A stretch of 45,959 bases of DNA, taken from positions 1 through 45,959 of IMG/VR virus record IMGVR_UViG_3300034198_004611; one strand, written 5' to 3'. Of this stretch, positions 7,036 to 45,598 are shown in pieces (the first letter of the stretch is position 1; each line of letters starts with the position of its first letter). The position numbers and the translations under genes were made by a program. This DNA is from a virus. The notes under the pieces were generated by a model. It saw only the letters and a list, made by a program, of their open reading frames with translations. It made no database searches and had not been told where the DNA came from.

Positions 7036-10000
7036 ATGAGTTGTTATATTTCTTGGAACGGGCGTGAGTCCGTTCTAGCTTCTTTATTAGGGCAAAACGA
7101 AGGTGAGTTAGTACGTGACAGAGTAATGTCTTACGTGTACTCAAATGAATTCAAGGACAAGTTTGGAGACTTTCGAGATCCATATACTGTACCTGAATAC
7201 TCTACAGATGACATTGGAAAAGAACCTTCTTATGCTTGGGTTAAAGAGCAACTTTTAAAAGATTCTTCTGCTAATGAAGCTCAGTTGCACATAAACAATG
7301 TAAAAGAAGCAATCCAAACTCAATTACCTAAAGAGGTAGCAGACACAGTTTCTGTTATTGATGTAGTACCTGATTCAGTTTTAGGACGTAGAGACTTGTT
7401 CTTTGCAATGAAAGACGTGTTTGAATCAAATGGTATTACTGACACAGCTTTAATAAACTGGGCAGGTATTAATAAATCTATAGTAGGGCATCCAAAAGGA
7501 ATTAAAAACACAGCTGAGCTAGAAGCAATTCTAGAAAAGTCTTATGAAAAACTTTCTAATCCTGAAACTTACATAGAGTTAAAAACTAATCCACTTGCTG
7601 CAGAATCTTTTGATGCTTGGAAAGGAAGTCTACAAGATTACCCGCTTACATTTAGACACTTGATGTTAACGCACGCTGTGAAGTGGTTACGCAACCCAGA
7701 CAGAAGATCTAAGTACGTACTACAATTAAGTTCTGTTGCTTTAAGAAACACTTATGGGTTACTACAAGACAAACCTCATGAAGCAAACCGTATAGGAAAG
7801 TTGTATGACCAAGAAGTACTTAAAACTGTTTCTGATGCTATTGGACATGAACCATCTGCAAGTGGTAAAGGTTATTGGGTACATGTACCTAGGACTGAAA
7901 ATAAAAATGCTTTAAAAAATACAAAAACTTTATTAAGAGATAACACTAATGATCCTAATGCGCCTGCAAAATTTACTGTAGAGTATATGACTGAAGATGG
8001 CTCTTTAGACTTAGAAATGTTTGAAACAAGGGAAGAAGCTGAAAGATTTGAAATTAGTATAAAAGGAAATAATATTGTAGAAGATAACACTGCATACAAA
8101 ACTAATGTAGAATTACTTCGTAAGCTTTCTCCGTCTACTTGGTGTACATCTGGATCAGCAGCAAATACTTACGTAGAAGATTATGATAACTATGTACTTA
8201 TTGTAAACGGCAGAAGTGTTGCAGGTATAGAAGTTTACCCTGGAGAGGGTATTAGAAAAGTAAAAGAAGTAACTTCTGTAAACAACAACGGTGTAGCTTC
8301 TATAGATTTCTTAGATGACACTATAGCTTTCTTTGAAAAGAAAGGGTTTGATACAAACAATACAACACTTCAAAGAGCTATATCAGCTAGAGATGAAAAC
8401 AAAACTGATGAAAGTTATGCAAACGAATTAGAGTATGATTTTGATAACCCGTTTGATAACATATTTCAAGAAGAGTACCAAGGGGATTATGAACAAGATT
8501 ATTATAACCCATTTGAAGAAATGGGCCGAGAAGTAGACGATAGATATGACGAAATTCAAGGGTTAGCTACAAGTTTAACTACTGTTGAAGAAACTATAGA
8601 GTTTTTAAATAATCCTGACCTTGGGTATAGTTCAGGTTACTTTTTTGAAAACTTTACACAAGAACTTAGAAATAATTATGACATAGCTAAAGCAGCAGTT
8701 GAATCTTACGCATTAGCAATTAACTATGTAGACAGTACTTTACCTTTTTATGAAGAATTAGGCCTATTAGCTTTTTCTAAAAACAAAAATGTTTATACTT
8801 ATTTGTCTCCTGAGTTACAAGCTATGCCTGGATTACTAACAGAGTATGCTATTTTTACTCAAGAAGAAGAAGATGAGTTACCTTTTTCTAAAACAGAAGA
8901 TGCTATTCAAGGATACTACGATGCTAAGAATGACAAAGTAGTTGTAGTTGCTTCTAACATTACAACAGAAGAAGCAGCTAAGGTTGCTATACATGAAGTA
9001 GCCCACAGAGGTATGCTTCGTATGGCTAAAGAATTAGGAGGTACTAAAGAACTGTATGCTTCTTTAACTGCAGCTGAGTCTCAGTTGATGGAGAAACTTC
9101 CTGAGTTGTTAGAAAGAACAGGCCACAAAAACTTGGAAGCTTTAATGTTAGACTATGGTTTTACTACTAATAGCGAAGACGGTAAAGCTAAGTTGTTAAT
9201 GGAGTTAGCTGCTAGATGGGCAGAGACTTTAGTAGACAAACCTAAGCCTTCTTGGTGGATAGAATTATTACAAAGTATAGGACAATGGATTCAAAACTTT
9301 ACAGGTAAGACTTTAACAGAAAAAGAAGTAAATGAATTAGTTGGAGGTTTTGTAAGATACGGTTCTACTAACAACATAGAAACAACAGCATTAAGTCCTG
9401 CTGACACAGTAAACATTTATGCAGGTACTGGTGAAAATGCTGAGTTAAGTAATTTTGCACCAAGACCTTTTGAAATTGGTGGAATTAAATATAACAGTGT
9501 TGAACAAGCATTTCAACATGCTAAGTTAGCATTTGCAGAAACAAACGAACAAAATCTTAAAGTTGCAGATGCTATAATGAGATCTGATGGTGCAATGGCA
9601 AAATCATTAGGAAAAAAGTTTGTTTCATTTAATACAAAAGAATGGGATAGCCAAGCTTCTTCTGTAATGAAAACATTATTAAAAGAATCTTTTAAACAAA
9701 ATCCAGAAGCTCTTGCTAAATTACAAGCTACAGGAAATGCTACATTAACCCATACACAAGATAAAGGTAAGTGGGGTAAAGAGTTTCCAAAACTTCTTAT
9801 GGAAGTACGTAGTGAATTGACTATACCTGCGCCGCCAGTACAAACAGTTGAAGGTTACAGAGCTCAGGAACAAGCAGAACTAATTCAAAGAATACCTAAC
9901 ATAGAAGACTACAAAGTAGATGGTAAAGTAGACAAAAGTTTAATCACTGATGAGGCTGTCTTAGCTACTTACAATGAGATTTACGACAAGTACGATAAGT

Positions 10001-13000
10001 TAATCACTCCTTTGTTAAACGCTCCGGCACCACCGCCTCCTCCAAGTAGTAAACCTTCTTTTGTAAAGAAAGGTATATTTACAGTTACTCCTGCTCAAGC
10101 AGCTGATAAAAAAGCTACTATAAAAGCAAGTATAGCTACACAGTATATAGGATTTGGAGAAGGCATTCCAAATAGTTCTACAGAATTATACAGACAACAA
10201 GCCGGCCAATATGCTAACACAGGAAATTATTCAAGCAGTGATGTAATATTTGTATCTATAGGTGGTAAAAGAGGTACTGAACAACAACAAAAAACACAAC
10301 AAGATAGAACTATTCAAGAGGCATTAAAAGCAATTGAAGCCGGCTCTACTTTAATTACAGATAATAGAGACTACATAAACTCTAGTACGTATAACACTGG
10401 AGAAAAACGATTGTATAAAAACTTAGAAGCTAAAGGTTACAACTACTCAGAAGTAACTATTGACGGACAAACATTAGGTGTATGGACTAAAAATAATACT
10501 GTTGTGCCAGCGCCTCCTAGTGCTGCGCCAGTGGGACCAACTTTACTTGCTATCAAAGTACCAGAAGGAACTAAAAGAGTAAAAGCTTCTGAGCGTACTT
10601 CTGAAGATATTGAAGCAATAAAAAGCGTAATCCAAAGAAGATGGGTTGATGAAGCGTTAGCTAATCCTGACAAGCAGTACAAAGTAGGGTACGAAAACCC
10701 TAACAAGAACAAGTATCAAGATGACTACGGGTTCTATGTTAAAGAGTACGCTGAGTACTTAGATGACATTAGACTTGAGATGGGTGAAGACTTTCCTACA
10801 AACCTTACTTTCTTTCCGGCGTTTGAGTTTGCAATGAATTCTAATCCTGCTCGTTTAATGAAAGTGTTCAGTTCTAGAATTGAAGAGTTACAAAAAAGAA
10901 AAGAAGATTTAAACGTAGACCCATTAATAAATGCTGAGATTGCTGCAAGAATGGAAGTAGTTGTTGTAGATTCAAACGGAACTACTTTAAGTTACTTTAC
11001 AAAAGATCACGGAGGGAATGCGCAAAAAGAAGTAACAGATACTATACTTTCTGCAATGTACACAAAGTACTTAAGTACTACTGTACCTCCTTCGGTCGAT
11101 ACATTGTTTGAAGAAGGGTTGAAGACTATTGTAAGGGCTCAGATTGAGGCAAAGAAAAAAGGAGATACTAAACGTGAGACTTTGTGGGGTGACGTAAGAC
11201 GTTCATTTGCTTTTAAAGATGACCGAGTTTCTTTTATGTCTTTAATGCTTAATCATTTTGAAGCCTTAGGATTTAGTATTGATAGAAAAGCTAAAAACGG
11301 TTTACTGTCTAAGTACGATAAACTTAAAAACGACACAAGCATTTTAGAGAAAGTAACTGAAACAGTTTTACAAGTTGACTTAGTAGAGGGAGACTATAAC
11401 CTAGTACTAGAAGAAAGTGGAGACGATATTAACTTTGATCAATCAAGAGGTACTTCTTTAAAAGATTGGTCAGACTCTGCGTTTGAACAAGACCCTAGAA
11501 CTACTGCCGGCGCAAGACTTAAGATGTGGTTAAGTACTCAATACCGTAAGCAGAAGGCTACTTACAGAATACTAGATGACAGTACTGGAATACCAATGCC
11601 TCCTGGTTCTGTAGACATTACAGAAAAGATTCCTTCTATGGAATGGTTAACTGGTTTAAAACTTGGACAACAACTTCAAATAGCTTTTGCTTTGAATGGA
11701 AAACAGTGTAGTCACAAAACACTTGGGCCACAGATTCAAGAGTACTTTGATACAATGCATCCAACTGTACCTGTATTAAACAGTTTAGGAATGCAAAGCT
11801 TAGTTCAGTTTGACACTTTGTTAGCGTCTATACTTGATGAACTTTCTTCTACTCCTGACATGACTCTTGAGTTAGCTATAAGCAAATTAAAAGGAAGTGG
11901 AAACTCTGACTTGTTTGAGACTGGAACCAGATTAGAAAAAGCTTCAGAAAGAGATCAGAATGAATTTTTAAAAGTAACTAACCTTCAGTACGTGAAAGGT
12001 GTTGTTATTAAAGCTAACCCTAAGAAAGATGACAAAGGCCAAGAATACCATCAAGTACGTGTAATCGAAGCGCAACAGTTTGGACAACGTCAGACTGTTA
12101 TTAAAAAGTGGAAAGAAAGAAATGCCCTTAGTGCTGTAGTTAAAAAGAGAGCTGACGGTAGCAGAACTATTGATTTAGATAGAACAACAAAACAAGTAGA
12201 AGCTATTAAAGTACTTGCAATGCTAAGTAGTATCCCTACAAAAGAATACGTAAAAGGCCAAACAGTTGAAGAGAAGAAAGCAGCTGAAGAGTTGTACTTA
12301 GCAAACATGCAGGTATTCTTAAATGCTTTAGATAGTGCTCTTAACCTAAACAGAGAATACTTCAGTGGTATAACTGCTCAAATGTTAGTAGAAGATGAGT
12401 TAGGTAAAGTACTAGAAGGCGCTAAGAAAAGAGATTTCTCATCTAAAAGAAGTCTACAAGGTAAGACGTTACAATTACTTTTTAGAGAACATGGTGTGGA
12501 TTTAAACGATGCTGCTATACAAGACTTAGTTGGTGTGTACATTAAACCTGGTAAAGGTAATGAGAAAGCTACTGTTACTGATAAAGTAGCTGAGTGGACT
12601 AAAGGTACTAAACTACAAGGTGATTGGTTAAGTCAGTATTCTTTTAGTCTAGAAGGAAAACCTAAAGGAATGTTCTCAGCTTTTTTTGGTAAAGCTGCAG
12701 GTTTATTTACTGACAAAGACTTAGATTTAAACGAAGAAGAACTTGAAGACCAAGTAATGGACAACAATCCATTGTACACAGAGACTACTACTATCAATGC
12801 ATTAGCTAACGTAGCTAGAAAGCACACAGAAAACTTACATACAAACTCTCACAAGAATGCAGAAAACAAAACAGTTTGGGACTACAGTCTAAACACTGCT
12901 TTAAGTAATGAGGTACAAAGATTTGTAAACAACTCAGAAGAGATGAGAAAAGTTTACTTTAAAACTCAATTGCTTTCGTACCAAGATGCTTCTGGAAATA

Positions 13001-16000
13001 TTGTTTCTGGTAACTGGCATTTAAACAGATTGTTAGAAAACAAAGACAAGTTTGGTATTACATTCTTAGAAGGATTAAACTACAACAACAGAAGTAAAGG
13101 AACTACACGTACTAACATGTCAGACCGTGAACAACTTCTTTCAGTTGCTGGTGCGTACTTTAATGAAGGAAGACCGTTTGCTAACATGGTTAGTTTAACT
13201 CACTCTGATAAAACAGTAACTCCTATTTTTACTGGTGTGCCTAAAATTAAAATAAGTGAAGTTGCTAACAATGGAGTAATTGGATTAAACGTACAAGAAG
13301 CTTTCTTTGAAGTCTTTATGGCTGAATACAGAAGAGCTTTACAAGTTCAAAGCATTCTAAAGAATGGTGACAGTACTGGCGATGCACAGTTAGATGCCGG
13401 CGGAACTAATTTCTTTTTCTTGCCTTTGTTTAACAAAGAAAGCATGAGAGTTTTTGGGACTGAACAAATGTTGTATGCTGAAGACGGTTCTTTATTAGAA
13501 ACTATTGGCAACAACAAACCATTATTCCTTGAGTTAATTTCAAACTTCTTAAGAGATGAGATTAAAAAAGAAAGTGAAAAATGGGCTGAGTTAGGTATTG
13601 AGTACAAACATCTTGATAGGTCATATCAAAAATCTATGCAAAACGATTTGGATAACACTCCTAATTTTGGTAAATTGAACGACCTTGTTTACAGAAAACA
13701 AAACACTAAGGTTGAAGAACGTAACCAAATAATCTATAACAATGCTATTAAAGAGTTTACTTTAAACACTTTGTTGTGGAATATGAACAGTACTATGTTG
13801 TTTACTGGTGACCCTGCTCAAAACTGGAAGCCTTCTAAAATAGCTAGTGCAACTGAAGCCGACAACATTAATAGTACTTTTTCAGAGTTTGCAAAACGTT
13901 TGGCTAAAGACATTGCTCCTGGTCAGACATTAAACTTTACTAAACCTACGTTTAGAACATTAACTATTGCTGACGTAAAAGAAAAGTACGAATACATTAC
14001 TAAGTTTGGAGGAAACATAGAAGACTCTAATGCTGGAGATGCCCAAGAGTTTACTACAGTACAAGAACACCTTGACGTAATGTTAGCAGGTGGTCTAATA
14101 GAAAAAGATTTGTACAATGAGCTTTCTGGTATTGCTAAAGGAGAAGACTATGAGTTTACTGATGCTCAGTTAGATCAAATGATGCAACCAATGCAAGCTA
14201 TGAAGCCTGTATACACTGGGTTTAGAGACCCATCAAATGGTTTTAGAATGTATGACTACATCAAAACATCTTCTTACCCATTACTTCCTCAGTTTACAAA
14301 AGGCTTAGAGATAGACAAAGTACGTCAGATGATGGAGAAAGGTAACATCCAACGTATTGTATTTGAGTCAGGTAGAAAGATGGGAGGCCCTACTAATAAA
14401 ACTAAATTGTTTAAAGCAAACAAAGACGGTGTAATAGAATTTACTAATCCAGATGCTTCTGAGTTAGAGAGTTCTGTACAAACTTTAGATAGAAAGAATT
14501 TCCGTATTCAACAAGACGTACCTTATGATAGAGACAAAGAGGCTATTAAAGTAGTTTCTCAAATGAACAAACTAATTGTAGAAAGCATTGGAGACTTTAA
14601 TGACTTTGACATAGAAGGTTTTGGTAAAGGTAAGAGCGGTAAACAAGTTAGAGAGTACAAAGAAAGTATCAAAAGAAAAATGATTCAGTACAATCTAAAA
14701 ACCTTAAAGCAAAAACTTGGGATACAAACTGGTGCTGATGGAACTACTTCTCCTTTAGACAGGAAAAAGATACTAAACTTAATGATTGAAGAAGCTAAAA
14801 GTAGAGGGTACTCTACTAATGACCTTGTTTTAATCGAACGTCTTATAGAGTACAAGGATGACAGTGGAAGAATTGTAGACACTGATTTTGACTTTCCTTT
14901 ATTCTTACACCCTGCAGTAGAGAAGTTTGAAAGCCTTTTAATGTCAATTGTTAGAAAGGTTACTGAGTTCAAAATGCCAGGTAAATCTTACGTACAAGCT
15001 GCTTCTGTAGGTTACAATAGAGTAATTAAAGAAGGTGAAGTTGACTCTAGAGGTATGATTTACGTAGCGGGTTATGATAGTTCACAACCTCTTAGACACA
15101 TGCAAGTTGTTGACGGCGTAGTAAAACCAGCTCAAGTATTAGCGCCATTCAACTTTTATGGTAAAGATGCAGAAGGAAATGACATCAAGTACAAAATAAC
15201 TGACTTCTTAAAAGAAGGTACAAACGAGTTAGACACTGATAGAGTACCAAAAGAATTCTTACAATTAATAGGAGCTCGTATTCCAAACCAAGGTCATAAC
15301 TCTATGATTGCAATGGAGATTGTAGGATTTGTACCTGATTGGATGGGTGATACTCTTATAGTACCATCTGCAATCACTGGTCAAATGGGATCTGACTTTG
15401 ACGTAGATAAGTTATTCACATACAAAAGACCTTATACATTTGACGGTTCTACAGTAAAAAGAATTAACAAACAAACTAAAGAAGCATTTGCAGACGAGTA
15501 TGTTAATAATATAATAGAAGCTACACCTGAAGGAGAAACTCCTAGAGATGTTAGCCAAGACGAGATTGATGCAGAGTATGCTAAAGTTCCAGACACTAAA
15601 GAAAGTCTACAAGAAGATTACTTTAATGTACACTGGGGAGTTTTAACAAATAGAGACTTATATTCTAAAGTACTAAGCTCATTAGATAAACCCGACTTAG
15701 GTCAAGCCAATAAAAAGTTTGCTACCAATGATACAACTAGAGGTTCTTTCTGGAGCTCTAGAACACAACAAGAAATGTTCCAAGCTGGTAAAGATGCTAA
15801 AACTCTAGTAGGTCTTACATCTTTAGCTGTAACTTTTAACTCTGTACTTCAAGGTAAAGCCCTTCAATATGGAAGCTACACTAAAATAAAAGGAGGGTAC
15901 AAGAAAGATGTCAAGTACTTGAAACTAAATGGTATGGACTTCTCTTCTTTATCTGGTACTGGAACTATTGAAAGGGATGGAGTAACTTATTCTAAGCATG

Positions 16001-19000
16001 ACAATCAAACTATTTTTCAATCAGGTGCTGTAGATAATGCCAAAGACAGAACGTTAGACAACTTAAACATAACTATTGCAACGTATCCTGCTATACAAGT
16101 ACTTCACCAACTAGAAACTAATGATGGTGAAATCCTTACTACAGACTTTAGTACAGCTATGATGGTTCAAGAAATACTTTGGGAGTACTCTAAAGAAATG
16201 AGACAAGGTAATGACTCTATGAGTGACAGTTACACAAACGAATTGTCTCTTAAAGTACAAGACGAGTTGTATAAAAAGTATGCTACAGAATACTATGAGC
16301 TTACACAGAAAACTCCAGAGCCTAGTACTATACAATTGACTACAGAGCATTTAACAAAAGCTTGGGATACAAAAAACAAAGCTGTAAAAATAGACAAGTC
16401 TCGTAGTGCAGAAATGAAAAGAGAGACTTACTTGTTGACTCAACTAGCTACATTGAATGCGTTTGGAGAACTTTTAAAAATTGGTGAGAGACTTGGTCAA
16501 CTTCAAAAGACTTTAAATCAAGACACTAATGGAGCCGGTCCAAATGTATTGTATGCTTCTCAACAAATGGAAAACTTTACAAACATTAGCATACCTAATG
16601 AGTTTAAATCTATTATAAACGAAGAAAGTATTTTAAGTACTGGAAATGAGTTGTCGGAGCAGGCAGATACTTTCTTAAGTGTAATACCGTTAGCAATGAA
16701 CTTAGGAGAGAAAGTGTTTCCTCTAGAGTTAATGCAAAAACTAATTTCTACAGTTGCTTTAAACAGTAACATACAGTTGTCTGAGATGTCATTAGACACA
16801 CAAAGAAAAATAATTAGAGACTTACGCTCGGCTGTGTTGTCATCTTCTACAGTACTTGCTGAAGACCCAACTGCGGAAAGAGTTAACTTGTTGTATGGTA
16901 CTGAAACTACAGACTCTTTAGCGCTTAGATTAGACTCATACAAAGAAAGAAACCCAGGTAATTACTTCTTAGAAAGACTTCACACAAAAGTTAACTTAAA
17001 CGGAAAGGGCCCAGACTATGTAGAGTACGTAAATGCTACAGCAGTTCGTATGGATGAGGAACTAAATGTTTCAGACTTTATGAAACTAATAAACTCTGAA
17101 GATCCTGAAGCAAAAGAATTAGGTGATGACTTGGTAAAGTACGCTTTACTTTTAACTCCGCAAGCAGGACCAAAGTCTTTTATTAGCAAAGTACCTGCAG
17201 CTGTTTTATTAGGTACTAGATTCTCTGCTGAGATGAGAAATAGTACTCAGCAAATGGTAGATAGTGTAGAAGTATCAAGCGGCTTTATTGCTCAGTTGTA
17301 CCAACACAATCCTGATTTAGCTATGGAAGTTTCTGAAGAAGTAGTAAAAGCTAACAATCCTTTGTACAACATCCCAGACAGAACTTATCCTGAAGTACTT
17401 GAAGTAGATAGAACTAATACTAACTTAGAATTAGCTGACGGGTTTACTCCTTACATAAGATACTATGATAAAACAGAAGGTAAGGTAATTTTATACAAGT
17501 TGTTTTCTCAAAGCGACAAAGTAACCTACCAACGTATTGATATTTTAGGAGACAAGAATAGTGTAGAGTACGATTTAACAGTGTCAGGGAATAACTCTTC
17601 TATCTTTGTAAAGAACAAAGCCGGTTATAAATTTGGAGCAGAAGAAGCAAACATTAAACTTGCTACAGATGTAGAGAGAAACATTTCATTGGCAGCTGAT
17701 GAAGACAATGCATACACTCGTTGGGGTATACAACCAGACGGTGGTCTAGAGAACGTAAACTTTATGTTGACTCAGTTAAACAATGACCCTGCTGTTCCTA
17801 CATTCTTAAGAACTCTAGCTAATGTTTTAAGCAAGCAAGAAGGAAATGACCAAGAGGAAAATATGTTCAAAGCATTAGGTATTGATAGAGAGTTAAAAAT
17901 TAAAACTACTTTAGAAAACCAAGGATCAGCTGGGCAGTATGCTATTAATAACACTAAAACTACTTTAACTTTACAACGTCAATCAGATGTAGGAAAAGCA
18001 GCAACTGTATTAGTTCATGAAGTTATACACCAAAAGACTTCAATATTTACTGCATTACTTGGATGGGGAAAAAGTTTAAAAGCAGAGCAAATAGCTGAGT
18101 ATAGAAAACAATATCCAGAACTTTACAAAAAGTTTACAAGACTAGATGCTTTAAGATATGAAGCTTTAAAAGCTTTTGAAAAAGACTTAGAGTTAAATGG
18201 ATTGACACTGGAATCACTTGCAGCAATGAGGAAAGACGGTACTATGCCAAGTGGTACTATTCATAAAATAGGATACGCTTTAAGTAGTTTAGATGAGTTT
18301 ATTGCGCACATACAAACTGATCCAGATGTTATGAAGTTTTTAAACTCTGTAGAATCTACATCAGCTAGAACTTTCTTAGAAAGAGTATTAGATAGTTTCT
18401 TAGAATTGATTCAAGATGTAATGAATGCAATAGGTGGCATTAATGAGAAGTCTATTTTAAGAGAGGCCTTAAGCTTAGCGTATAATGTAACTAATCAAAC
18501 AGAATCAGAATTTTTACTGATTGAAAATAATTCAGTCAGTCCACAGACAGTAAACTTTAATACTGAGTCGAATGCTCTAAGCGTCCAACAAGTTGTCGAA
18601 GGTATATACGGAAAACAAACATCTTTAAGTACTGATGGAATTGGCCATCAATTAAATATCTTAAACCAAAGTAAAGCTGCTAAACCTAGTGCCGAACTTC
18701 AGAAAGTCTTGGATAAAATTCAAGTACAAATGAGAACGTTAGACGGCGTCTTATCTTCTCCAGTACGTTCTGCAGATGATAAAATCAGACGTAACCAAGC
18801 TTTAAGATTGTTTGAAGAAATTCAAGATGATTACAACCATTTGTCTACAACAAAAGACTTCATGGAATTGTCAGAGGTTGCAGACAAACAATTAGAATGG
18901 GTTAAGGCTACGTTAGCTAAACCAACAAATCATGTACAAGAAGTTATCATGGCTACAAGTATTTTAGATACCTGGGGTAACATCATGGACTTGTACGAAG

Positions 19001-22000
19001 AGAACTTTACTTTAGTTAATCCTGCTTTTCAAGAAGTTGTAAAGAACATTCAAAACAGTTCTGCACTTTTAATGGGGTCATTGAAGAATAGTACTTTAAA
19101 TACTTTAATTGCGGTTGGAGCAAGTAAAGGGTTGACTATTACTAAAGCTGATTTAGGCTCTAATATAAAAGACCTAAATGTTGCAGAACAACAAGCTCTT
19201 GCACTTTCTAGAGATACTAATAAAGTATCACAACTTGTAGCACTAGTTGGTCAGAATGCAGCTAACAATGCTCAGGAAGAACAGACAATGTTAAGAAACA
19301 AAATGAATAAAGTATTAACTCTTTTAGGTAATGACAAAGCAACTTACGCTAAGTTTATTCAAGAAAATGATACAGAGTCTGCTTTTGGTTTAGTACAAGA
19401 ACTACATCCTGACTGGTATTCAGCAGTTGCTTCAGCTAGTAAAGAGTTAAACAATACTTTGTGGTCATTAGACTCAAGAGCTTCTCTAACTTCTAAAGAT
19501 GCGAATGTAAGAAAGAAAGCTATTGCAGCTAGAAAAAAAGCATTAAAAGCTTTCTGGAGTTCAATGAGCAAAGTAGGTAAAGTAGTAGACTACACTAAGT
19601 TGTTTTCAATGGAAGGTATTTTGTTAACTACTCCTGAGGCTACAGCTGAATACAATGCTTTATTAGCTTTCACTGGAAGTAAGTCTGTAGTTGATGACAT
19701 AATTGAAGATGCTCAAAACAATGTTAAAAAGTATTATGAAGAGTACTTAGACAACATGTCTTCTATAGAAGTAAATACAAAACTTAGTCCGGAAGATAAC
19801 TTAAAAGTTATTTCTTCTTTGACTGCTGAAGAGAAATTACTTGACCCATTAGAACAGTTAAAAGTAATTAAACAAAGAACTGATTTAATGTTGGCTGAGC
19901 GAATCGATTACAGAAAAAGAACTTGGATTTCTAGAAACTCTCCGTTTGAGTTTATGGCAACAGTTAATCCTAAAGCAAGTGATGCAAAGTTTAGTCACTC
20001 AGGAAGATTTAAACCTTTATTTGTACCTAAAGCAGGTGACCAAATGTTTGACAAGAAGTACAAAGAATTAATGGCAGACCCTAAGTTAAAAGAAGCTTAT
20101 GATACTTTTGTAGAACTTTCTAAACTTTACAGATCTTACTTACCTCCTAAGGTTAGTTCTAAACTTCATGACAACTTCTTGCCGGTAATCAACATTCAGG
20201 ATGTCGCATCAATGTACAAGATGATTGGTGAATTAGGTTGGTCTAAAGTAGGTCAAGTATTCTTGAACAGTTTTACTGTAAGTAAGTTTGACGCAGACAG
20301 AAAAGAGTCTAGTGAAATTCCAATTAAGTTTACAGGCAGTGCACCTAGAGATCCAATAACTGGTAAAGTAGATTTTGAAAAAGTAAGTATTGACTTACCT
20401 AGAATTTTTGAGATGTTTGGAAATATTGCAATACATTACCGCCACATGTACCCTGCAAAAGAGTTTATTGACTTAGCTCAAAGAGTAATACAAAACGAAA
20501 GTAAGAAACGTCAAAACAGTGGAGAAGGAAGTTTGTCAAACCTAGAAGAGTTACTTAAGTTCTATAAAGACACTTTAGTTTACAAAAAACCTTTAGCAGT
20601 TGGAGGTGTAGCAAGTGAAGCTATCTATTCTCTTAATCCTTCTGAAAACAAAAGACTTAAAGAAAGAGTGTTTAACCTTAATCAAGAACTAAAAGAACTT
20701 GAAGCAGAAGAACAGATTAATCCAAACGTACTCTTAGACGATACACACAGTAATAAAAAGAAAGCTATTGTAGATGAGTTAGCGTTCATAGAATCTACAG
20801 CTAGGTATGCATCTCTTACTAAAGTAGGAGACACTCTAATTGGAATTAATCAGTTAAAAGCTATGTCTTACAATCCATTCTCAGCTGTGAGTAACTTCTC
20901 TTTTGGGTACATGTCTGGGTTTATACATGCAAGAGGCTTTAGAGCAGAAGACAAAGAAACAGGTGAGACGTCTGGAGACTATACTGCAGCTCAATTAAGA
21001 ATGGCTTACAGTTTAATGAAAGGTAACATTGCACGTTCTTGGGGTAGTATTTTTAACTTATCAGGTAGTGATACTGCTTTAAAATGTAAAGCAATCATAG
21101 AAAGAATAGGAATGGTTGATGCTTTGAGTGACACTACTTACGGTAAAACAAACTTAGAAAACTTCCAAAAGAAAGGATGGCAAAAAACTGTAGACCCGTT
21201 TGCTTGGCAAAAGTCTGGTGACTTTTTAACAAAAGGAGCAGTAATGATTGCTATGACTTTAAACAAACATGTAGAAGTAACTGAGAATGGTGTAACAAAA
21301 CGTATTCCTTTGTTTGATGCTTTAAGTATTGAAGCTAAATGGGATGTTGAAAAGTACGGGGAAAACGAAACATGGCAGTCAGATAAGGACATTGATAACC
21401 AAGTAGATTGGAATAAGTTCCGTAACAAAGTACGTAAAGTAGGTATCCTAGTTTTTGGTAACCAGGATAGAAACTCTCCTTTGATGGCTCGTAAAAATCT
21501 TATAGGCAGATTGATTAGTCAGTTCCGTTTAAGCTGGATACCAGAAGGGTTTAACACTAGATGGGGTAACGAATATGAAGATGCTGAGTTAGGTAGAACT
21601 GTTAGTGGACGTTACAGAACTATGTTTAACATGAAAGGGTTTGGAGTTCCAACTTTAATTCGCCAAGTTTTAAGTACTTTTAACGGGTCAGACGCTTTTG
21701 AAGGTGTAGAAACTAAGCAATGGGAAATAATTAATGGTGAAAAACGTCAAGTTTGGAAAACAATTCAAGCACATGAGAAAGAAAACATGAGACGTAACCT
21801 TGCTGGTATGACTTACACTGCAGCAGTACTTGCTACGTTGGCTATTCTTAGAGCTGGATTACCTGATGAAGAAGAGATGAGACGTAGAAAAAGAATGGGA
21901 ATAGCTCCAAACACTGGGCAAAGAATGTTAATAAATATGTTGTATCGTATGCAACAAGATTTACAATTCTATTCTAATCCTTTTGTAATGGATCAAATAG

Positions 22001-22197
22001 TAGCCAGTCCGATACCGGCTTGGAATGTACTAAAAGACTTTATGAACATCTATCAAGTAGTAGGAATTTTACAAGGAGAAGACAAGGATAAGTATGAAAG
22101 AGCTTTAAAGAAAATTACAAAAGCTTTCCCTTATTTAAACTTGTATAACAAAATAGAATTCATGACAAGTAGAGATATTAGTGCAGCAGTAAGATAG
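7036..22197 (+). CDS. Giant (5053 residues) multidomain virion RNA polymerase polyprotein
   Basis: This is one uninterrupted frame of 15.2 kb. Domains in order: a domain with SPSTWCTSG (365-373); zincin-like HEVAH (653-657); NADAR domain (about 792-928); SLOG-like domain (about 1009-1150), framed by proline-rich linkers; RNA polymerase core including SSYPLLPQF (from 2412), ESGRKMG (2444-2450), FRIQQD (2489-2494) and the metal-binding DFDVD (2787-2791); a second zincin-like HEVIH (3661-3665); a long helical C-terminal region with a hydrophobic segment near 4926-4942. The DxDxD motif is the active site of the double-psi beta-barrel RNA polymerases related to YonO and the crAss-like virion polymerase of phi14:2, which are packaged and transcribe early genes. 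The size far exceeds the roughly 2200-residue phi14:2 enzyme. Start: ATG 11 nt after the previous stop, behind TTAAAATTTTAAATT. Processing into smaller proteins is possible. Confidence 0.9.
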   Translation: MSCYISWNGRESVLASLLGQNEGELVRDRVMSYVYSNEFKDKFGDFRDPYTVPEYSTDDIGKEPSYAWVKEQLLKDSSANEAQLHINNVKEAIQTQLPKEVADTVSVIDVVPDSVLGRRDLFFAMKDVFESNGITDTALINWAGINKSIVGHPKGIKNTAELEAILEKSYEKLSNPETYIELKTNPLAAESFDAWKGSLQDYPLTFRHLMLTHAVKWLRNPDRRSKYVLQLSSVALRNTYGLLQDKPHEANRIGKLYDQEVLKTVSDAIGHEPSASGKGYWVHVPRTENKNALKNTKTLLRDNTNDPNAPAKFTVEYMTEDGSLDLEMFETREEAERFEISIKGNNIVEDNTAYKTNVELLRKLSPSTWCTSGSAANTYVEDYDNYVLIVNGRSVAGIEVYPGEGIRKVKEVTSVNNNGVASIDFLDDTIAFFEKKGFDTNNTTLQRAISARDENKTDESYANELEYDFDNPFDNIFQEEYQGDYEQDYYNPFEEMGREVDDRYDEIQGLATSLTTVEETIEFLNNPDLGYSSGYFFENFTQELRNNYDIAKAAVESYALAINYVDSTLPFYEELGLLAFSKNKNVYTYLSPELQAMPGLLTEYAIFTQEEEDELPFSKTEDAIQGYYDAKNDKVVVVASNITTEEAAKVAIHEVAHRGMLRMAKELGGTKELYASLTAAESQLMEKLPELLERTGHKNLEALMLDYGFTTNSEDGKAKLLMELAARWAETLVDKPKPSWWIELLQSIGQWIQNFTGKTLTEKEVNELVGGFVRYGSTNNIETTALSPADTVNIYAGTGENAELSNFAPRPFEIGGIKYNSVEQAFQHAKLAFAETNEQNLKVADAIMRSDGAMAKSLGKKFVSFNTKEWDSQASSVMKTLLKESFKQNPEALAKLQATGNATLTHTQDKGKWGKEFPKLLMEVRSELTIPAPPVQTVEGYRAQEQAELIQRIPNIEDYKVDGKVDKSLITDEAVLATYNEIYDKYDKLITPLLNAPAPPPPPSSKPSFVKKGIFTVTPAQAADKKATIKASIATQYIGFGEGIPNSSTELYRQQAGQYANTGNYSSSDVIFVSIGGKRGTEQQQKTQQDRTIQEALKAIEAGSTLITDNRDYINSSTYNTGEKRLYKNLEAKGYNYSEVTIDGQTLGVWTKNNTVVPAPPSAAPVGPTLLAIKVPEGTKRVKASERTSEDIEAIKSVIQRRWVDEALANPDKQYKVGYENPNKNKYQDDYGFYVKEYAEYLDDIRLEMGEDFPTNLTFFPAFEFAMNSNPARLMKVFSSRIEELQKRKEDLNVDPLINAEIAARMEVVVVDSNGTTLSYFTKDHGGNAQKEVTDTILSAMYTKYLSTTVPPSVDTLFEEGLKTIVRAQIEAKKKGDTKRETLWGDVRRSFAFKDDRVSFMSLMLNHFEALGFSIDRKAKNGLLSKYDKLKNDTSILEKVTETVLQVDLVEGDYNLVLEESGDDINFDQSRGTSLKDWSDSAFEQDPRTTAGARLKMWLSTQYRKQKATYRILDDSTGIPMPPGSVDITEKIPSMEWLTGLKLGQQLQIAFALNGKQCSHKTLGPQIQEYFDTMHPTVPVLNSLGMQSLVQFDTLLASILDELSSTPDMTLELAISKLKGSGNSDLFETGTRLEKASERDQNEFLKVTNLQYVKGVVIKANPKKDDKGQEYHQVRVIEAQQFGQRQTVIKKWKERNALSAVVKKRADGSRTIDLDRTTKQVEAIKVLAMLSSIPTKEYVKGQTVEEKKAAEELYLANMQVFLNALDSALNLNREYFSGITAQMLVEDELGKVLEGAKKRDFSSKRSLQGKTLQLLFREHGVDLNDAAIQDLVGVYIKPGKGNEKATVTDKVAEWTKGTKLQGDWLSQYSFSLEGKPKGMFSAFFGKAAGLFTDKDLDLNEEELEDQVMDNNPLYTETTTINALANVARKHTENLHTNSHKNAENKTVWDYSLNTALSNEVQRFVNNSEEMRKVYFKTQLLSYQDASGNIVSGNWHLNRLLENKDKFGITFLEGLNYNNRSKGTTRTNMSDREQLLSVAGAYFNEGRPFANMVSLTHSDKTVTPIFTGVPKIKISEVANNGVIGLNVQEAFFEVFMAEYRRALQVQSILKNGDSTGDAQLDAGGTNFFFLPLFNKESMRVFGTEQMLYAEDGSLLETIGNNKPLFLELISNFLRDEIKKESEKWAELGIEYKHLDRSYQKSMQNDLDNTPNFGKLNDLVYRKQNTKVEERNQIIYNNAIKEFTLNTLLWNMNSTMLFTGDPAQNWKPSKIASATEADNINSTFSEFAKRLAKDIAPGQTLNFTKPTFRTLTIADVKEKYEYITKFGGNIEDSNAGDAQEFTTVQEHLDVMLAGGLIEKDLYNELSGIAKGEDYEFTDAQLDQMMQPMQAMKPVYTGFRDPSNGFRMYDYIKTSSYPLLPQFTKGLEIDKVRQMMEKGNIQRIVFESGRKMGGPTNKTKLFKANKDGVIEFTNPDASELESSVQTLDRKNFRIQQDVPYDRDKEAIKVVSQMNKLIVESIGDFNDFDIEGFGKGKSGKQVREYKESIKRKMIQYNLKTLKQKLGIQTGADGTTSPLDRKKILNLMIEEAKSRGYSTNDLVLIERLIEYKDDSGRIVDTDFDFPLFLHPAVEKFESLLMSIVRKVTEFKMPGKSYVQAASVGYNRVIKEGEVDSRGMIYVAGYDSSQPLRHMQVVDGVVKPAQVLAPFNFYGKDAEGNDIKYKITDFLKEGTNELDTDRVPKEFLQLIGARIPNQGHNSMIAMEIVGFVPDWMGDTLIVPSAITGQMGSDFDVDKLFTYKRPYTFDGSTVKRINKQTKEAFADEYVNNIIEATPEGETPRDVSQDEIDAEYAKVPDTKESLQEDYFNVHWGVLTNRDLYSKVLSSLDKPDLGQANKKFATNDTTRGSFWSSRTQQEMFQAGKDAKTLVGLTSLAVTFNSVLQGKALQYGSYTKIKGGYKKDVKYLKLNGMDFSSLSGTGTIERDGVTYSKHDNQTIFQSGAVDNAKDRTLDNLNITIATYPAIQVLHQLETNDGEILTTDFSTAMMVQEILWEYSKEMRQGNDSMSDSYTNELSLKVQDELYKKYATEYYELTQKTPEPSTIQLTTEHLTKAWDTKNKAVKIDKSRSAEMKRETYLLTQLATLNAFGELLKIGERLGQLQKTLNQDTNGAGPNVLYASQQMENFTNISIPNEFKSIINEESILSTGNELSEQADTFLSVIPLAMNLGEKVFPLELMQKLISTVALNSNIQLSEMSLDTQRKIIRDLRSAVLSSSTVLAEDPTAERVNLLYGTETTDSLALRLDSYKERNPGNYFLERLHTKVNLNGKGPDYVEYVNATAVRMDEELNVSDFMKLINSEDPEAKELGDDLVKYALLLTPQAGPKSFISKVPAAVLLGTRFSAEMRNSTQQMVDSVEVSSGFIAQLYQHNPDLAMEVSEEVVKANNPLYNIPDRTYPEVLEVDRTNTNLELADGFTPYIRYYDKTEGKVILYKLFSQSDKVTYQRIDILGDKNSVEYDLTVSGNNSSIFVKNKAGYKFGAEEANIKLATDVERNISLAADEDNAYTRWGIQPDGGLENVNFMLTQLNNDPAVPTFLRTLANVLSKQEGNDQEENMFKALGIDRELKIKTTLENQGSAGQYAINNTKTTLTLQRQSDVGKAATVLVHEVIHQKTSIFTALLGWGKSLKAEQIAEYRKQYPELYKKFTRLDALRYEALKAFEKDLELNGLTLESLAAMRKDGTMPSGTIHKIGYALSSLDEFIAHIQTDPDVMKFLNSVESTSARTFLERVLDSFLELIQDVMNAIGGINEKSILREALSLAYNVTNQTESEFLLIENNSVSPQTVNFNTESNALSVQQVVEGIYGKQTSLSTDGIGHQLNILNQSKAAKPSAELQKVLDKIQVQMRTLDGVLSSPVRSADDKIRRNQALRLFEEIQDDYNHLSTTKDFMELSEVADKQLEWVKATLAKPTNHVQEVIMATSILDTWGNIMDLYEENFTLVNPAFQEVVKNIQNSSALLMGSLKNSTLNTLIAVGASKGLTITKADLGSNIKDLNVAEQQALALSRDTNKVSQLVALVGQNAANNAQEEQTMLRNKMNKVLTLLGNDKATYAKFIQENDTESAFGLVQELHPDWYSAVASASKELNNTLWSLDSRASLTSKDANVRKKAIAARKKALKAFWSSMSKVGKVVDYTKLFSMEGILLTTPEATAEYNALLAFTGSKSVVDDIIEDAQNNVKKYYEEYLDNMSSIEVNTKLSPEDNLKVISSLTAEEKLLDPLEQLKVIKQRTDLMLAERIDYRKRTWISRNSPFEFMATVNPKASDAKFSHSGRFKPLFVPKAGDQMFDKKYKELMADPKLKEAYDTFVELSKLYRSYLPPKVSSKLHDNFLPVINIQDVASMYKMIGELGWSKVGQVFLNSFTVSKFDADRKESSEIPIKFTGSAPRDPITGKVDFEKVSIDLPRIFEMFGNIAIHYRHMYPAKEFIDLAQRVIQNESKKRQNSGEGSLSNLEELLKFYKDTLVYKKPLAVGGVASEAIYSLNPSENKRLKERVFNLNQELKELEAEEQINPNVLLDDTHSNKKKAIVDELAFIESTARYASLTKVGDTLIGINQLKAMSYNPFSAVSNFSFGYMSGFIHARGFRAEDKETGETSGDYTAAQLRMAYSLMKGNIARSWGSIFNLSGSDTALKCKAIIERIGMVDALSDTTYGKTNLENFQKKGWQKTVDPFAWQKSGDFLTKGAVMIAMTLNKHVEVTENGVTKRIPLFDALSIEAKWDVEKYGENETWQSDKDIDNQVDWNKFRNKVRKVGILVFGNQDRNSPLMARKNLIGRLISQFRLSWIPEGFNTRWGNEYEDAELGRTVSGRYRTMFNMKGFGVPTLIRQVLSTFNGSDAFEGVETKQWEIINGEKRQVWKTIQAHEKENMRRNLAGMTYTAAVLATLAILRAGLPDEEEMRRRKRMGIAPNTGQRMLINMLYRMQQDLQFYSNPFVMDQIVASPIPAWNVLKDFMNIYQVVGILQGEDKDKYERALKKITKAFPYLNLYNKIEFMTSRDISAAVR
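8992..9006 (+). other. Zincin-like HExxH site 1 in the giant protein
   Basis: Codons for H653-E654-V655-A656-H657, preceded by the helix AAKVAI as in gluzincin/metzincin active-site helices. A downstream acidic third ligand is plausible but not fixed. It could act on the giant chain itself or on another protein. The motif is short, so function is inferred. Confidence 0.5.
9409..9819 (+). other. NADAR domain inside the giant RNA polymerase protein
   Basis: Residues about 792-928 show the full family pattern: LSNFAPRPFEIGGIKYNSVE, then QAFQHAKLAF, the MRSDGAMAKSLGKK helix, W, VMKTLLKESFKQNP, and the closing DKGKWGKEFPKLLMEVR. NADAR (YbiA-like) proteins are N-glycosidases acting on ADP-ribose-linked or related nucleotide substrates; some remove ADP-ribose from DNA guanine. 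The domain sits before the first long proline-rich linker. Assignment is from motif recognition and is fairly sure; the substrate in this phage is unknown. Confidence 0.8.
10060..10485 (+). other. SLOG-like nucleotide-binding domain inside the giant protein
   Basis: Residues about 1009-1150 contain TQYIGFGEGIPNSSTELYRQ, then NTGNYSSSDVIFVSIGGKRG and GSTLITDN, an alternating hydrophobic strand/loop pattern like the YpsA/LOG-type Rossmann folds seen in phage proteins. Proline-rich linkers (PAPPPPPSSKP before and VPAPPSAAP after) set it off as a separate module. The nucleotide or NAD-derived ligand is unknown, and the family assignment is tentative. Confidence 0.5.
15394..15408 (+). other. RNA polymerase catalytic motif DFDVD
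   Basis: Codons for D2787-F-D2789-V-D2791 within GQMGSDFDVDKLF. The three aspartates match the DxDxD magnesium-binding loop of the second double-psi beta-barrel of RNA polymerases. The surrounding GSDFDxDK context matches crAss-like virion polymerases better than bacterial NADFDGD. Confidence 0.85.
18016..18030 (+). other. Zincin-like HExxH site 2 in the giant protein
   Basis: Codons for H3661-E3662-V3663-I3664-H3665 in ATVLVHEVIHQKTS, on the far side of the polymerase core from site 1. A possible third ligand is E3754 in SSLDEFIAH about 90 residues later, as in gluzincins. This is a metallopeptidase-like domain by motif; activity is inferred. Confidence 0.5.
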
Positions 22198-25202: not shown

Positions 25203-25730
25203 ATGAAACAAATACTTTTTATCTTTAGTATACTACTTTTATTTAGCTGTAATACATTGCGTAAAGCTCAAACTCGTTTACTAAAAGTAGAAGTAAGACA
25301 TCCTGAATTACTTACAAAGTACTGTGCAGCCAAGTACCCAAATGTAGAAAATACTACAACAAACATTGAGTACATTACAAATACTGACACGTTTTACACA
25401 GATCCTATTTTAATAGACTGCGATTCTGTTAAGTATGATACAATTTTAAAAACTAAAGTAGTTTCAATAAAATGTCCTCCTTCTTATTTAAAGCGTGACA
25501 CTATACGTAAAGAAGTTGTTGTAACTAAATGGAACACAGCCTTAGTACAAGTACTTGGAGACAGTCTAAGCAAAGAAAAAGAAAGAACTGTTATAATATT
25601 ACAAACACTGAATAAGACACAAAATAGCCTACACAAGTACAAGATTGGAACAATGGTTCTACTCTTCCTAGTACTTCTATTTTTTATTCTTAAAACAGTT
25701 TTAAAATGGACAAATCCATTAAAGTTATAA
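25203..25730 (+). CDS. Unimolecular-spanin-like lipoprotein
   Basis: 175 residues. The N-terminus MKQILFIFSILLLFSC is a lipoprotein signal with the acylated cysteine at 16 (lipobox LFSC). The middle, about residues 60-145, is charged with coiled-coil potential near SLSKEKERTVIILQTLNKTQ. The C-terminus has one transmembrane segment (IGTMVLLFLVLLFFILKTVL, about 148-167) followed by a short basic end. An outer-membrane lipid anchor plus a C-terminal inner-membrane anchor is the layout of u-spanins such as T1 gp11, which span the periplasm and disrupt the outer membrane at lysis. It sits between a holin-like gene and the lysozyme and overlaps the latter by 25 nt. The function is inferred from topology and context, with no sequence match claimed. 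Confidence 0.65.
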   Translation: MKQILFIFSILLLFSCNTLRKAQTRLLKVEVRHPELLTKYCAAKYPNVENTTTNIEYITNTDTFYTDPILIDCDSVKYDTILKTKVVSIKCPPSYLKRDTIRKEVVVTKWNTALVQVLGDSLSKEKERTVIILQTLNKTQNSLHKYKIGTMVLLFLVLLFFILKTVLKWTNPLKL

Positions 25731-26203
25731 CCACTATTGGAACAGAAGGGTTAGAACTAATCAAACAAAAAGAAGGCTTTGAGGCTAGTCCTTATTTATG
25801 CTCAGCTAAAGTACCAACTATAGGTTATGGCGCAACGTACTATCCTAAAGACTACAGTGTTGTAGCTTTAAGAGGTAAAAGAGTAACAATGCAAGACCCT
25901 GCAATTTCAGAAGCAGCAGCATGTCTTTTGCTTAAGAGTATGCTAAAATCTTATGAACAAGGAGTAAACAGTTTTACTAGAGATGACATTAATCAAAATC
26001 AGTTTGACGCCTTAACTTCTTTTGCGTACAACATAGGTACTGGAGGGTTAAAAGGTTCTAACTTACTTAAAAAAGTAAATAAGAATCCTAACGACTCTAC
26101 TATTAGAGCAGAGTTTTTAAAGTGGGTTTACGCTAATGGTAAACTTTTAAAAGGCTTGATGATTAGACGAACTCAAGAAGCTGACTTGTACTTTAAAAAA
26201 TAA
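25706..26203 (+). CDS. Endolysin, GH24 (T4-type) lysozyme
   Basis: 165 residues. The catalytic pattern E-8aa-C-5aa-T of phage lysozymes is visible: E23 in KQKEGFE, C32 in YLCSAK and T38 in PTIGYGAT. Later family motifs are also present: NQFDALTSFAYNIGTGGLKG and the C-terminal LKWVYANGKLLKGLMIRRTQEADL. It hydrolyses the peptidoglycan glycan strand. The length is typical for the family. There is no signal peptide or SAR segment, so it needs a holin to reach the periplasm. Cys instead of Asp at the second catalytic position is a known variant. It is the last gene of the plus-strand block and is followed by a terminator. GTTTTAAAATG forms its start region. Confidence 0.9.
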   Translation: MDKSIKVITTIGTEGLELIKQKEGFEASPYLCSAKVPTIGYGATYYPKDYSVVALRGKRVTMQDPAISEAAACLLLKSMLKSYEQGVNSFTRDDINQNQFDALTSFAYNIGTGGLKGSNLLKKVNKNPNDSTIRAEFLKWVYANGKLLKGLMIRRTQEADLYFKK

Positions 26204-44678: not shown

Positions 44679-44861
44679 TTACTCATAATGGGATGAGAGA
44701 TACTCAACCATGTACTTAGCATAAGTGACAAGTACTTCTTTGTCTTCAAAAGTAAACTGAATTTGACCAGCTTTCTCTGCTGTCTCAAACGCCTTTTTAA
44801 ATTTCTTGTACTTGTTTTCTGTAAACGCTATGCTAGGCGTTTCTATTTTTTCGTCGCTCAT
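44679..44861 (-). CDS. Small hypothetical protein
   Basis: 60 residues, highly charged and helical (NKYKKFKKAFETAEKAGQIQ, then TFEDKEVLVTYAKYMVEYLS). It overlaps the dNMP kinase gene by 4 nt (ATGA) and lies 21 nt before the next gene. The short length and lack of motifs prevent assignment, but strand, coding spacing and overlap support it as a real gene. Confidence 0.65.
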   Translation of the reverse strand: MSDEKIETPSIAFTENKYKKFKKAFETAEKAGQIQFTFEDKEVLVTYAKYMVEYLSSHYE

Positions 44862-45598
44862 AAAAGTTTAAAGTGTTTTAGCATTTCTAAAACTTGTTCT
44901 CTAAGTTCTTCGATACTGCCGTTGTTATTAATAGTGTAGTCAAATCTGTAAGAATCAAGTCCTATCTCTGAGGAATGGGCATTGTTAGTACTCATATCTC
45001 CTCCACGGATTACTTGTACACAAAGACCGTTACGTTTTTGTACTGCGTCATACTCATTAGGAAATCTCATGTCTGTAATGATCCAGTTAGGATACAGCAA
45101 TTCAGGTTTTTCACTAAGTTGTACATTTAACCAAGAGTTTTCTGCTTTATAGTCAGTAAACAAAGCATTTACCCATGTATCAGGATGTAACCCATCTCTG
45201 ATAGCTTCGGTGCCTAACTTTTGTAAAAACTCTCTGTAAGTAAGCGGAATATCCATAAAACCGTCTTGATTGTTCTCATCGCACTCATAAACCTGTTTAG
45301 TATAACACCAGTCGTCTGACATGTAAGTCTTTTTAAACTCTTGGTCTTCAAACTTTTCTACAGGAATACCCGTAAGCAATGTAGCAATCTGTTTTAACTT
45401 ACCAGCAAACTTTTTGATTTCCCAATAGTTTGTCCAATTAAAACCTATACCTTTTGGATGATGTTTTTGAATATCATCCCAGTATTCTTGGTCCCAGACT
45501 CCTCCTGTGTGTAATAAAAATTGAGCAATACTGCCTACAGTGTCTTTTCCAGAATTTTGTCTACCTGATATAGCAATTAAATTTGATTTAGTTGTCAT
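44858..45598 (-). CDS. Deoxynucleoside monophosphate kinase
   Basis: 246 residues. The P-loop GRQNSGKDT (12-20) is followed by the phage dNMP-kinase pattern: KKFAGKLKQIATLLTGIP, YREFLQKLGTEAIRDGLHPD with TWVNAL, WIITDMRFPNEYDAV and a closing basic/acidic helix. It converts dNMPs to dNDPs for phage DNA synthesis, as T4 gene 1 product does. The protein has a longer middle insertion (about 95-115, VYECDENNQDGF). It overlaps the small gene upstream by 11 nt. It is the only nucleotide-metabolism enzyme in the window; others may lie to the right. Confidence 0.85.
   Translation of the reverse strand: MTTKSNLIAISGRQNSGKDTVGSIAQFLLHTGGVWDQEYWDDIQKHHPKGIGFNWTNYWEIKKFAGKLKQIATLLTGIPVEKFEDQEFKKTYMSDDWCYTKQVYECDENNQDGFMDIPLTYREFLQKLGTEAIRDGLHPDTWVNALFTDYKAENSWLNVQLSEKPELLYPNWIITDMRFPNEYDAVQKRNGLCVQVIRGGDMSTNNAHSSEIGLDSYRFDYTINNNGSIEELREQVLEMLKHFKLL

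Follow-up and report, generated by a model that had tools for sequence, protein, structure and literature searches.

The window, by which we mean the whole stretch of DNA analysed, is a 45,959-base viral record. A single open reading frame (ORF) of 5053 amino acids runs along its forward strand and joins a NADAR domain to a phage RNA polymerase. This giant ORF is open under the standard code (code 11), and an alternative genetic code, which was considered for the window, is needless. The features of the ORF are as follows.

7036-22197, forward strand: giant ORF, 5053 amino acids, with an N-terminal payload region, an RNA polymerase core and a gp49-like C-terminal part
8632-8739, forward strand: DUF4116 match, residues 533-568 (PF13475, 27.9 bits against a cut-off of 24.9)
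8992-9006, forward strand: HEVAH, a metallopeptidase-like motif of the HExxH type at residues 653-657, ahead of NADAR (sequence motif, without a match in Pfam)
9409-9819, forward strand: NADAR domain, residues 792-928 (Pfam, 55 bits; fold Z 18 to 8bau)
9502-9504, forward strand: codon of predicted catalytic Glu 823, aligned with E43 of 8bau and E88 of E. coli C7 NADAR (role from PMC11543638)
9523-9525, forward strand: codon of predicted catalytic Lys 830, aligned with K50 of 8bau and K95 of E. coli C7 NADAR (role from PMC11543638)
9751-9753, forward strand: codon of His 906, which aligns with the histidine of T4 gp30.3 that replaces the E125/D171 catalytic acid
9826-9837, forward strand: PAPP linker directly after NADAR, residues 931-934
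10024-10050, forward strand: proline-rich linker PAPPPPPSS before the second module
10078-10515, forward strand: second plug-in module, alpha/beta, residues 1015-1160, no family assigned
10507-10518, forward strand: PAPP linker after the second module, residues 1158-1161
12394-16296, forward strand: crAss-type RNA polymerase core (profile against 6vr4)
15394-15411, forward strand: DFDVDK catalytic metal-binding loop, residues 2787-2792 (sequence motif)
20164-22053, forward strand: C-terminal part related to PhiCrAss001 gp49 (homology)

Elsewhere the window encodes a phage lysozyme (PF00959) at 25706-26203 on the forward strand and, on the reverse strand, a 922-residue RIIA-like protein at 29255-32023 in a replication block (PHROG 612, E 9e-25) and a deoxynucleotide monophosphate kinase (PF21448) at 44858-45598.

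By homology, the polymerase encoded in 7036-22197 is a relative of the crAss-type virion RNA polymerases. A phmmer search matched it to the phi14:2 polymerase 6vr4 (E 3e-14), a 16-member profile (alignment A8) matched residues 382-1674 of the same chain at E 3.4e-135, and a profile of the whole window protein matched PhiCrAss001 gp50 (E 3e-137) and gp49 (E 7e-35). The D, F, D, D and K columns of the catalytic loop are invariant in alignment A1, and the gp49-like part occurs as a separate ORF in one related locus (L150). The window polymerase thus has a core homologous to those of phi14:2 gp66 (6vr4) and PhiCrAss001 gp50, with the DFDxD loop in common; these proteins are 2194 (6vr4 chain) and 2412 residues long, whereas the window protein adds to the core some 1070 residues of N-terminal payload and the gp49-like part. 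Both gp49 and gp50 of PhiCrAss001 have been detected in virions by mass spectrometry (PMC10172136), and Yutin 2021 (PMC7886860) reports that virions contain the phi14:2 polymerase, which is translocated together with the DNA. Because these homologues are virion components, we infer that the window protein is probably packed in the virion and ejected, entering the cell ahead of the DNA or together with it.

Judged by the core, the closest polymerases are those of L068 and L069, neither of which carries NADAR; they are 37-38% identical to the window protein over the stretch that starts at residue 1115 or 1150 and runs to its end. They match the window protein in its first 50-100 or so residues and again from about residue 1115 on, with nothing between, and the DUF4116 match, the HExxH motif at 653, NADAR and the second module all fall inside the region that has no counterpart. 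On these alignments NADAR belongs to a payload region that is specific to the lineage and separate from the polymerase core, and it is joined by linkers rich in Pro and Ala. The sequence-only reading of this DNA had described a NADAR domain embedded in a virion polymerase; domain and polymerase do share one polypeptide whose homologues are virion cargo, but the core itself does not contain the domain, which is found in the variable payload region. With an HExxH motif, a DUF4116 match, NADAR, the second module and a polymerase, the window ORF combines several unrelated domains in one large protein.

The second module also appears to be mobile among giant proteins, on either side of the polymerase core. 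It precedes the core in the window, and copies about 70% identical follow the core in L148-L151, in one of which (L150) the polymerase is 25% identical to that of the window; further copies are in L048, L058, L105 and L152. A SLOG identity suggested by eye was not supported, with no Pfam match and no Foldseek match below E 0.001, but may still hold. The best Foldseek matches were methyltransferases (E 0.012, poor superposition), and the top VIA rows had Z of about 5.

Residues 792-928 are a NADAR domain, apparently intact, with similarity far beyond chance. The first codon of the domain (792) begins at 9409 and the last (928) finishes at 9819, exactly where the domain had been proposed from the sequence. 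The profile search suggested along with that proposal matched PF08719 to residues 800-915 with E 1.5e-14 and 55 bits, above the Pfam gathering score of 35.1, and the catalytic residues are kept. The proposal thereby survives both results named as able to refute it, a missing profile match and a loss of catalytic residues. PHROG 1017 matched the domain at E 5.5e-20, and among PDB sequences YbiA (2b3w) and the Phytophthora NADAR (8bau) matched it at E 7.7e-9 and 4e-8. An AlphaFold model of the domain, built from an alignment of 48 sequences, has a pLDDT of 90.9. Foldseek with this model returned just two structures below E 0.001, 8bau and 2b3w, and VIA-align superposed the model on ADP-ribose-bound 8bau with Z 18.0 (2.1 A over 144 residues), on 2b3w with Z 15.5 and on the Geobacter NADAR 8bat with Z 9.5.

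NADAR catalysis uses a glutamate and a lysine (E88 and K95 in the E. coli C7 protein, E43 and K50 in 8bau), and the catalytic Glu/Asp of the last strand is replaced by His in phage NADARs (PMC11543638). The equivalent residues E823, K830 and H906 are each kept in 63/63 of the family members that cover the position (64 aligned), and H906 aligns with the histidine of T4 gp30.3. One ligand of the pyrophosphate in 8bau, R93, is read from the alignments as A or S in the window NADAR. T4 30.3 (gp30.3 class, PF08010/PF08719) is of the same fold family and has the catalytic E and K and the histidine in place of the YbiA glutamate; it is a separate small protein, whereas the window NADAR is part of a 5053-residue polypeptide with a polymerase. 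The NADARs of DarT1-NADAR toxin-antitoxin systems belong to the same enzyme family and are likely to share its chemistry. In those antitoxins (BC4488-type) an Asp marks the subfamily, whereas the last-strand residue of the window NADAR is His 906, and those window ORFs that were compared with Pfam or PHROGs gave no DarT match, in a record that may be a fragment. In the 15 closest NADAR pairs dN/dS is 0.25-0.70, below 1 in every one, showing purifying selection.

A scan with the window NADAR found relatives at 61 viral loci, almost all of them in giant polymerase ORFs; some of the 61 are near-duplicates, and all survey contigs are metagenomic. A polymerase was detected in the same ORF for 54 of 62 NADAR ORFs, and truncation, a weak profile match or recoding accounts for most of the eight exceptions. 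Three (L012, L030 and L038) run into the end of the contig or locus, two (L020 and L050) show the DFDIDK motif, one (L054) is fused to polymerase if TAG is read as Gln, and one (L057) has its frame broken within NADAR. This leaves L059 as the only giant NADAR ORF among the eight with neither a detected polymerase nor an explanation. The NADAR-bearing giant ORFs of L003, L004 and L054 are open only with TAG as a sense codon (TAG=Q).

A second survey was anchored on the polymerase, using as query an alignment of the DFDxDK region, which avoids selecting on NADAR. NADAR was present in 9 of the 80 loci found through the polymerase loop alone, always in the polymerase ORF, and no separate NADAR ORF was found in these 80 loci up to 10 kb on each side. 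An earlier form of the query, the raw polymerase segment P0003, returned no loci from the viral contigs because its patterns fell in variable parts. LAGLIDADG/Hint matches in two NADAR-negative giants (alignment A4) suggest inteins in the polymerase gene.

In annotated phage genomes, the NADARs most similar to that of the window are from the crAss-like phages cr126_1 (46% identical), cr131_1 and cr130_1. In cr126_1, a named crAss-like genome, gp003 (NC_055884) is an ORF of about 2400 residues that has NADAR near its N-terminus together with a DFDIDK motif, and it is annotated only as 'DUF1768 domain-containing protein'. The sequence-only reading had proposed surveying crAss-like polymerases for the same arrangement and knew of no described case of it. 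The survey shows the fusion to be recurrent (61 NADAR loci; 9/80 polymerase loci). Our literature search found no description of a fusion of NADAR to a crAss-like RNA polymerase, but the arrangement was already in GenBank in the cr126_1 gp003 record.

The NADARs of these proteins are more alike than the polymerases that carry them, with median identities of 52% and 27%. Most of 59 proteins have NADAR behind the DFDxD loop and 8 have it in front, the window and one near-duplicate pair included. Two pairs of loci share NADAR and nothing else at DNA level. The only DNA match between L027 (20.5 kb) and L028 (18.6 kb) is NADAR, 97.5% identical over 471 bp; L025 and L035 likewise match in DNA only at NADAR (92.6% over 447 bp), and there the domains lie on opposite sides of polymerases that are 25% identical. 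Conversely, L005 and L013 have the same polymerase with NADARs 62% identical, which differ in their N-terminal part and are identical at the C-terminal end and flank. In L076 and L078 the left 13,720 bp are identical and the right 6,025 bp are 99.98% identical (19.7 kb together), and the sole difference is 480 bp with NADAR in one against 15 bp without it in the other, in frame. On a polymerase tree of 114 proteins, a quick tree of a fast-evolving family, the presence of NADAR changes state at least 20 times, and the polymerase-anchored sample has 7 state changes for 7 carriers. These comparisons indicate that NADAR has spread among unrelated polymerases as a cassette that is gained, lost and swapped between related phages.

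Since all survey contigs are metagenomic, and NADAR copies 92-97% identical could confuse assemblers, a pattern of this kind could in principle come from chimeric assembly around a repeated 450-bp sequence. An assembly artefact is unlikely, and this particular form of it seems to us extremely improbable: L076 and L078 match on both flanks, with a 15-bp sequence of its own at the empty site; every join examined keeps the reading frame; most NADARs, at only about 50% identity, differ too much to cause false joins; and the fusion is present in cr126_1, deposited as a complete genome. That NADAR is an inert remnant or structural spacer would agree with its absence without other change in the L076/L078 pair and with the apparently disrupted copy in L057, but we consider this very improbable as well, given catalytic residues invariant in 63/63 diverse copies, dN/dS below 1 in every close pair, and repeated gain or loss. 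The L057 locus is 99.7% identical to L050 over 20 kb; the two differ within NADAR near 10000-10200, where the frame break of L057 and an internal shortening in L050 are either polymorphism or assembly error.

In L028 a 12-bp direct repeat, CAACCATCTACT, which encodes QPST, flanks NADAR at 9977-9988 and 10478-10489. Unrelated phages show an excess of the QPST-coding 12-mer where NADAR joins its surroundings; in a minority of loci it lies at constant distances from the domain, and it may be a site of recombination. Direct repeats were considered as a general signature of insertion and rejected, since the 12-mer occurs in a minority of loci only and is a hint and not a mechanism. Neither the window nor L076 has convincing direct repeats around NADAR.

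Other modules found in the NADAR-bearing giant proteins are AlkB-like 2OG-Fe(II) oxygenases, cpYpsA SLOG, ART-PolyVal, an SF1 helicase and DUF7831. The AlkB-like module, scored with local profiles, is in 10/61 NADAR-positive and 0/71 NADAR-negative giants (p 3e-4, from counts that ignore shared ancestry). An association of NADAR with SLOG or ART was suggested by Pfam counts and is absent in the wider module survey, where SLOG is in 6/61 giants with NADAR against 7/71 without and ART in 6/61 against 6/71; only the AlkB-like module and one DUF4326-like module stay enriched with NADAR in this survey, whose counts ignore kinship. Carriers of the AlkB-like module, by family another base-damage reversal enzyme, include L010, L016, L018, L023, L037, L042, L053, L063 and L087. 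ART-PolyVal-like ADP-ribosyltransferase modules are in the giant polymerases of L007, L036, L041, L042, L068, L084 and L104, sometimes together with NADAR.

DarT ADP-ribosylation of phage DNA is a defence that blocks replication and transcription (PMC11543638), and every NADAR tested, including a coliphage one, reverses guanine ADP-ribosylation of DNA in vitro (PMC11125620). From the conserved residues and the predicted route of delivery we lean, with modest confidence, towards a virion-delivered NADAR that would reverse guanine ADP-ribosylation on the entering phage nucleic acid and that would be exchanged as a module in an arms race. Packed in the virion as part of the polymerase protein, NADAR would reach the cell ahead of the DNA or together with it. 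DarT1-like ADP-ribosyltransferases of the host would attach ADP-ribose to guanines of the entering DNA or early transcripts, and NADAR, present from the moment of entry and able to act when host ADP-ribosylation first meets the phage DNA, would strip it off and leave the first round of transcription free to proceed. That the domain protects the incoming template, as the sequence-only reading proposed, is thus plausible. Module swapping would then follow from an arms race in which hosts vary in their ADP-ribosylation defences. In cells, rescue from DarT1 was seen with the E. coli C7 and EPEC NADARs only and not with the phage one (PMC11125620), so the in-cell reversal of guanine ADP-ribosylation by phage-type NADARs remains putative.

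Across these proteins the domain is on either side of the core and in a variable region, so co-delivery fits better than a fixed active-site coupling; variable placement and frequent absence likewise point to the polymerase as a vehicle and not a mechanistic partner. The same observations bear on the idea that NADAR and the polymerase act jointly on RNA, with NADAR perhaps clearing early transcripts or 5' ends of moieties that derive from NAD or ADP-ribose. The fusion to a transcription enzyme speaks for such a role, as do the contexts that link NADARs to RNA repair (PMC9503650) and the existence of RNA ADP-ribosylation and its reversal (PMC11833690). We hold it to be improbable, since about 90% of the sampled polymerases have no NADAR and placement is on either side of the core, which argues that NADAR is not part of the transcription mechanism.

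A virion-delivered NADAR could instead hydrolyse soluble NAD-derived immune signals or toxic nucleotides, such as cyclic ADP-ribose variants, and leave nucleic acid adducts alone. Phage NADARs in general have been argued to act mainly on soluble ADP-ribose derivatives (Iyer et al. 2022, PMC9503650), SLOG (cpYpsA) and ART-PolyVal modules are in the same giant proteins, and a freely diffusing substrate would suit a fusion anywhere with flexible linkers as well. Against this, the NADARs tested in PMC11543638 and PMC11125620 were shown to reverse guanine ADP-ribosylation on DNA, and the survey found SLOG and ART no commoner with NADAR than without it. We regard this account as possible but rather doubtful. 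We infer that guanine-ADP-ribose reversal is the likeliest job, with soluble NAD-derived immune signals as its main rival.

A more elaborate account is offered tentatively, and we think it unlikely to hold in every part. NADAR would be a mobile in-frame cassette of about 450 bp that moves via recombination in short shared linkers (QPST repeats in some phages) among the virion polymerase genes of unrelated crAss-like phages and between the slots of these proteins. Such movement would swap a pre-packaged counter-defence without changing the transcription machine, and the tethered enzyme would clear ADP-ribosylated guanines from the transcribed template.

The window protein resembles the polyvalent proteins described by Iyer (2017, PMC5512222) in being giant, multi-domain and predicted to be injected, in its HExxH motif and in the ART-PolyVal modules of its relatives. 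N4-type virion polymerases fused to metallopeptidases are counted among polyvalent proteins (PMC5512222); unlike the proteins of that study, the window polymerase is of the crAss type and domain-level cassette exchange is visible. NADAR is absent from the text of PMC5512222. Viral NADARs have been described as 'typically standalone' outside RNA-virus polyproteins (Iyer 2022, PMC9503650), and their packaging in virions was proposed earlier (PMC9503650). We rate the finding as a known enzyme family carried as cargo of a known injected polymerase, in which domain-level cassette exchange is the new element. The domain is best read as a counter-defence module that the virion delivers and that can be exchanged, and as a new cargo for a polyvalent protein.

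The near-identical phages with and without NADAR, L076 and L078, are a natural test of the domain's purpose. More widely, crAss-like virion polymerases are a place to look for pre-packaged counter-defence, be it NADAR, the AlkB-like and ART modules or the second module. If the favoured reading is true, these phages arm the first enzyme that enters the cell with the means to reverse ADP-ribosylation of DNA or nucleotides before any phage gene is expressed.
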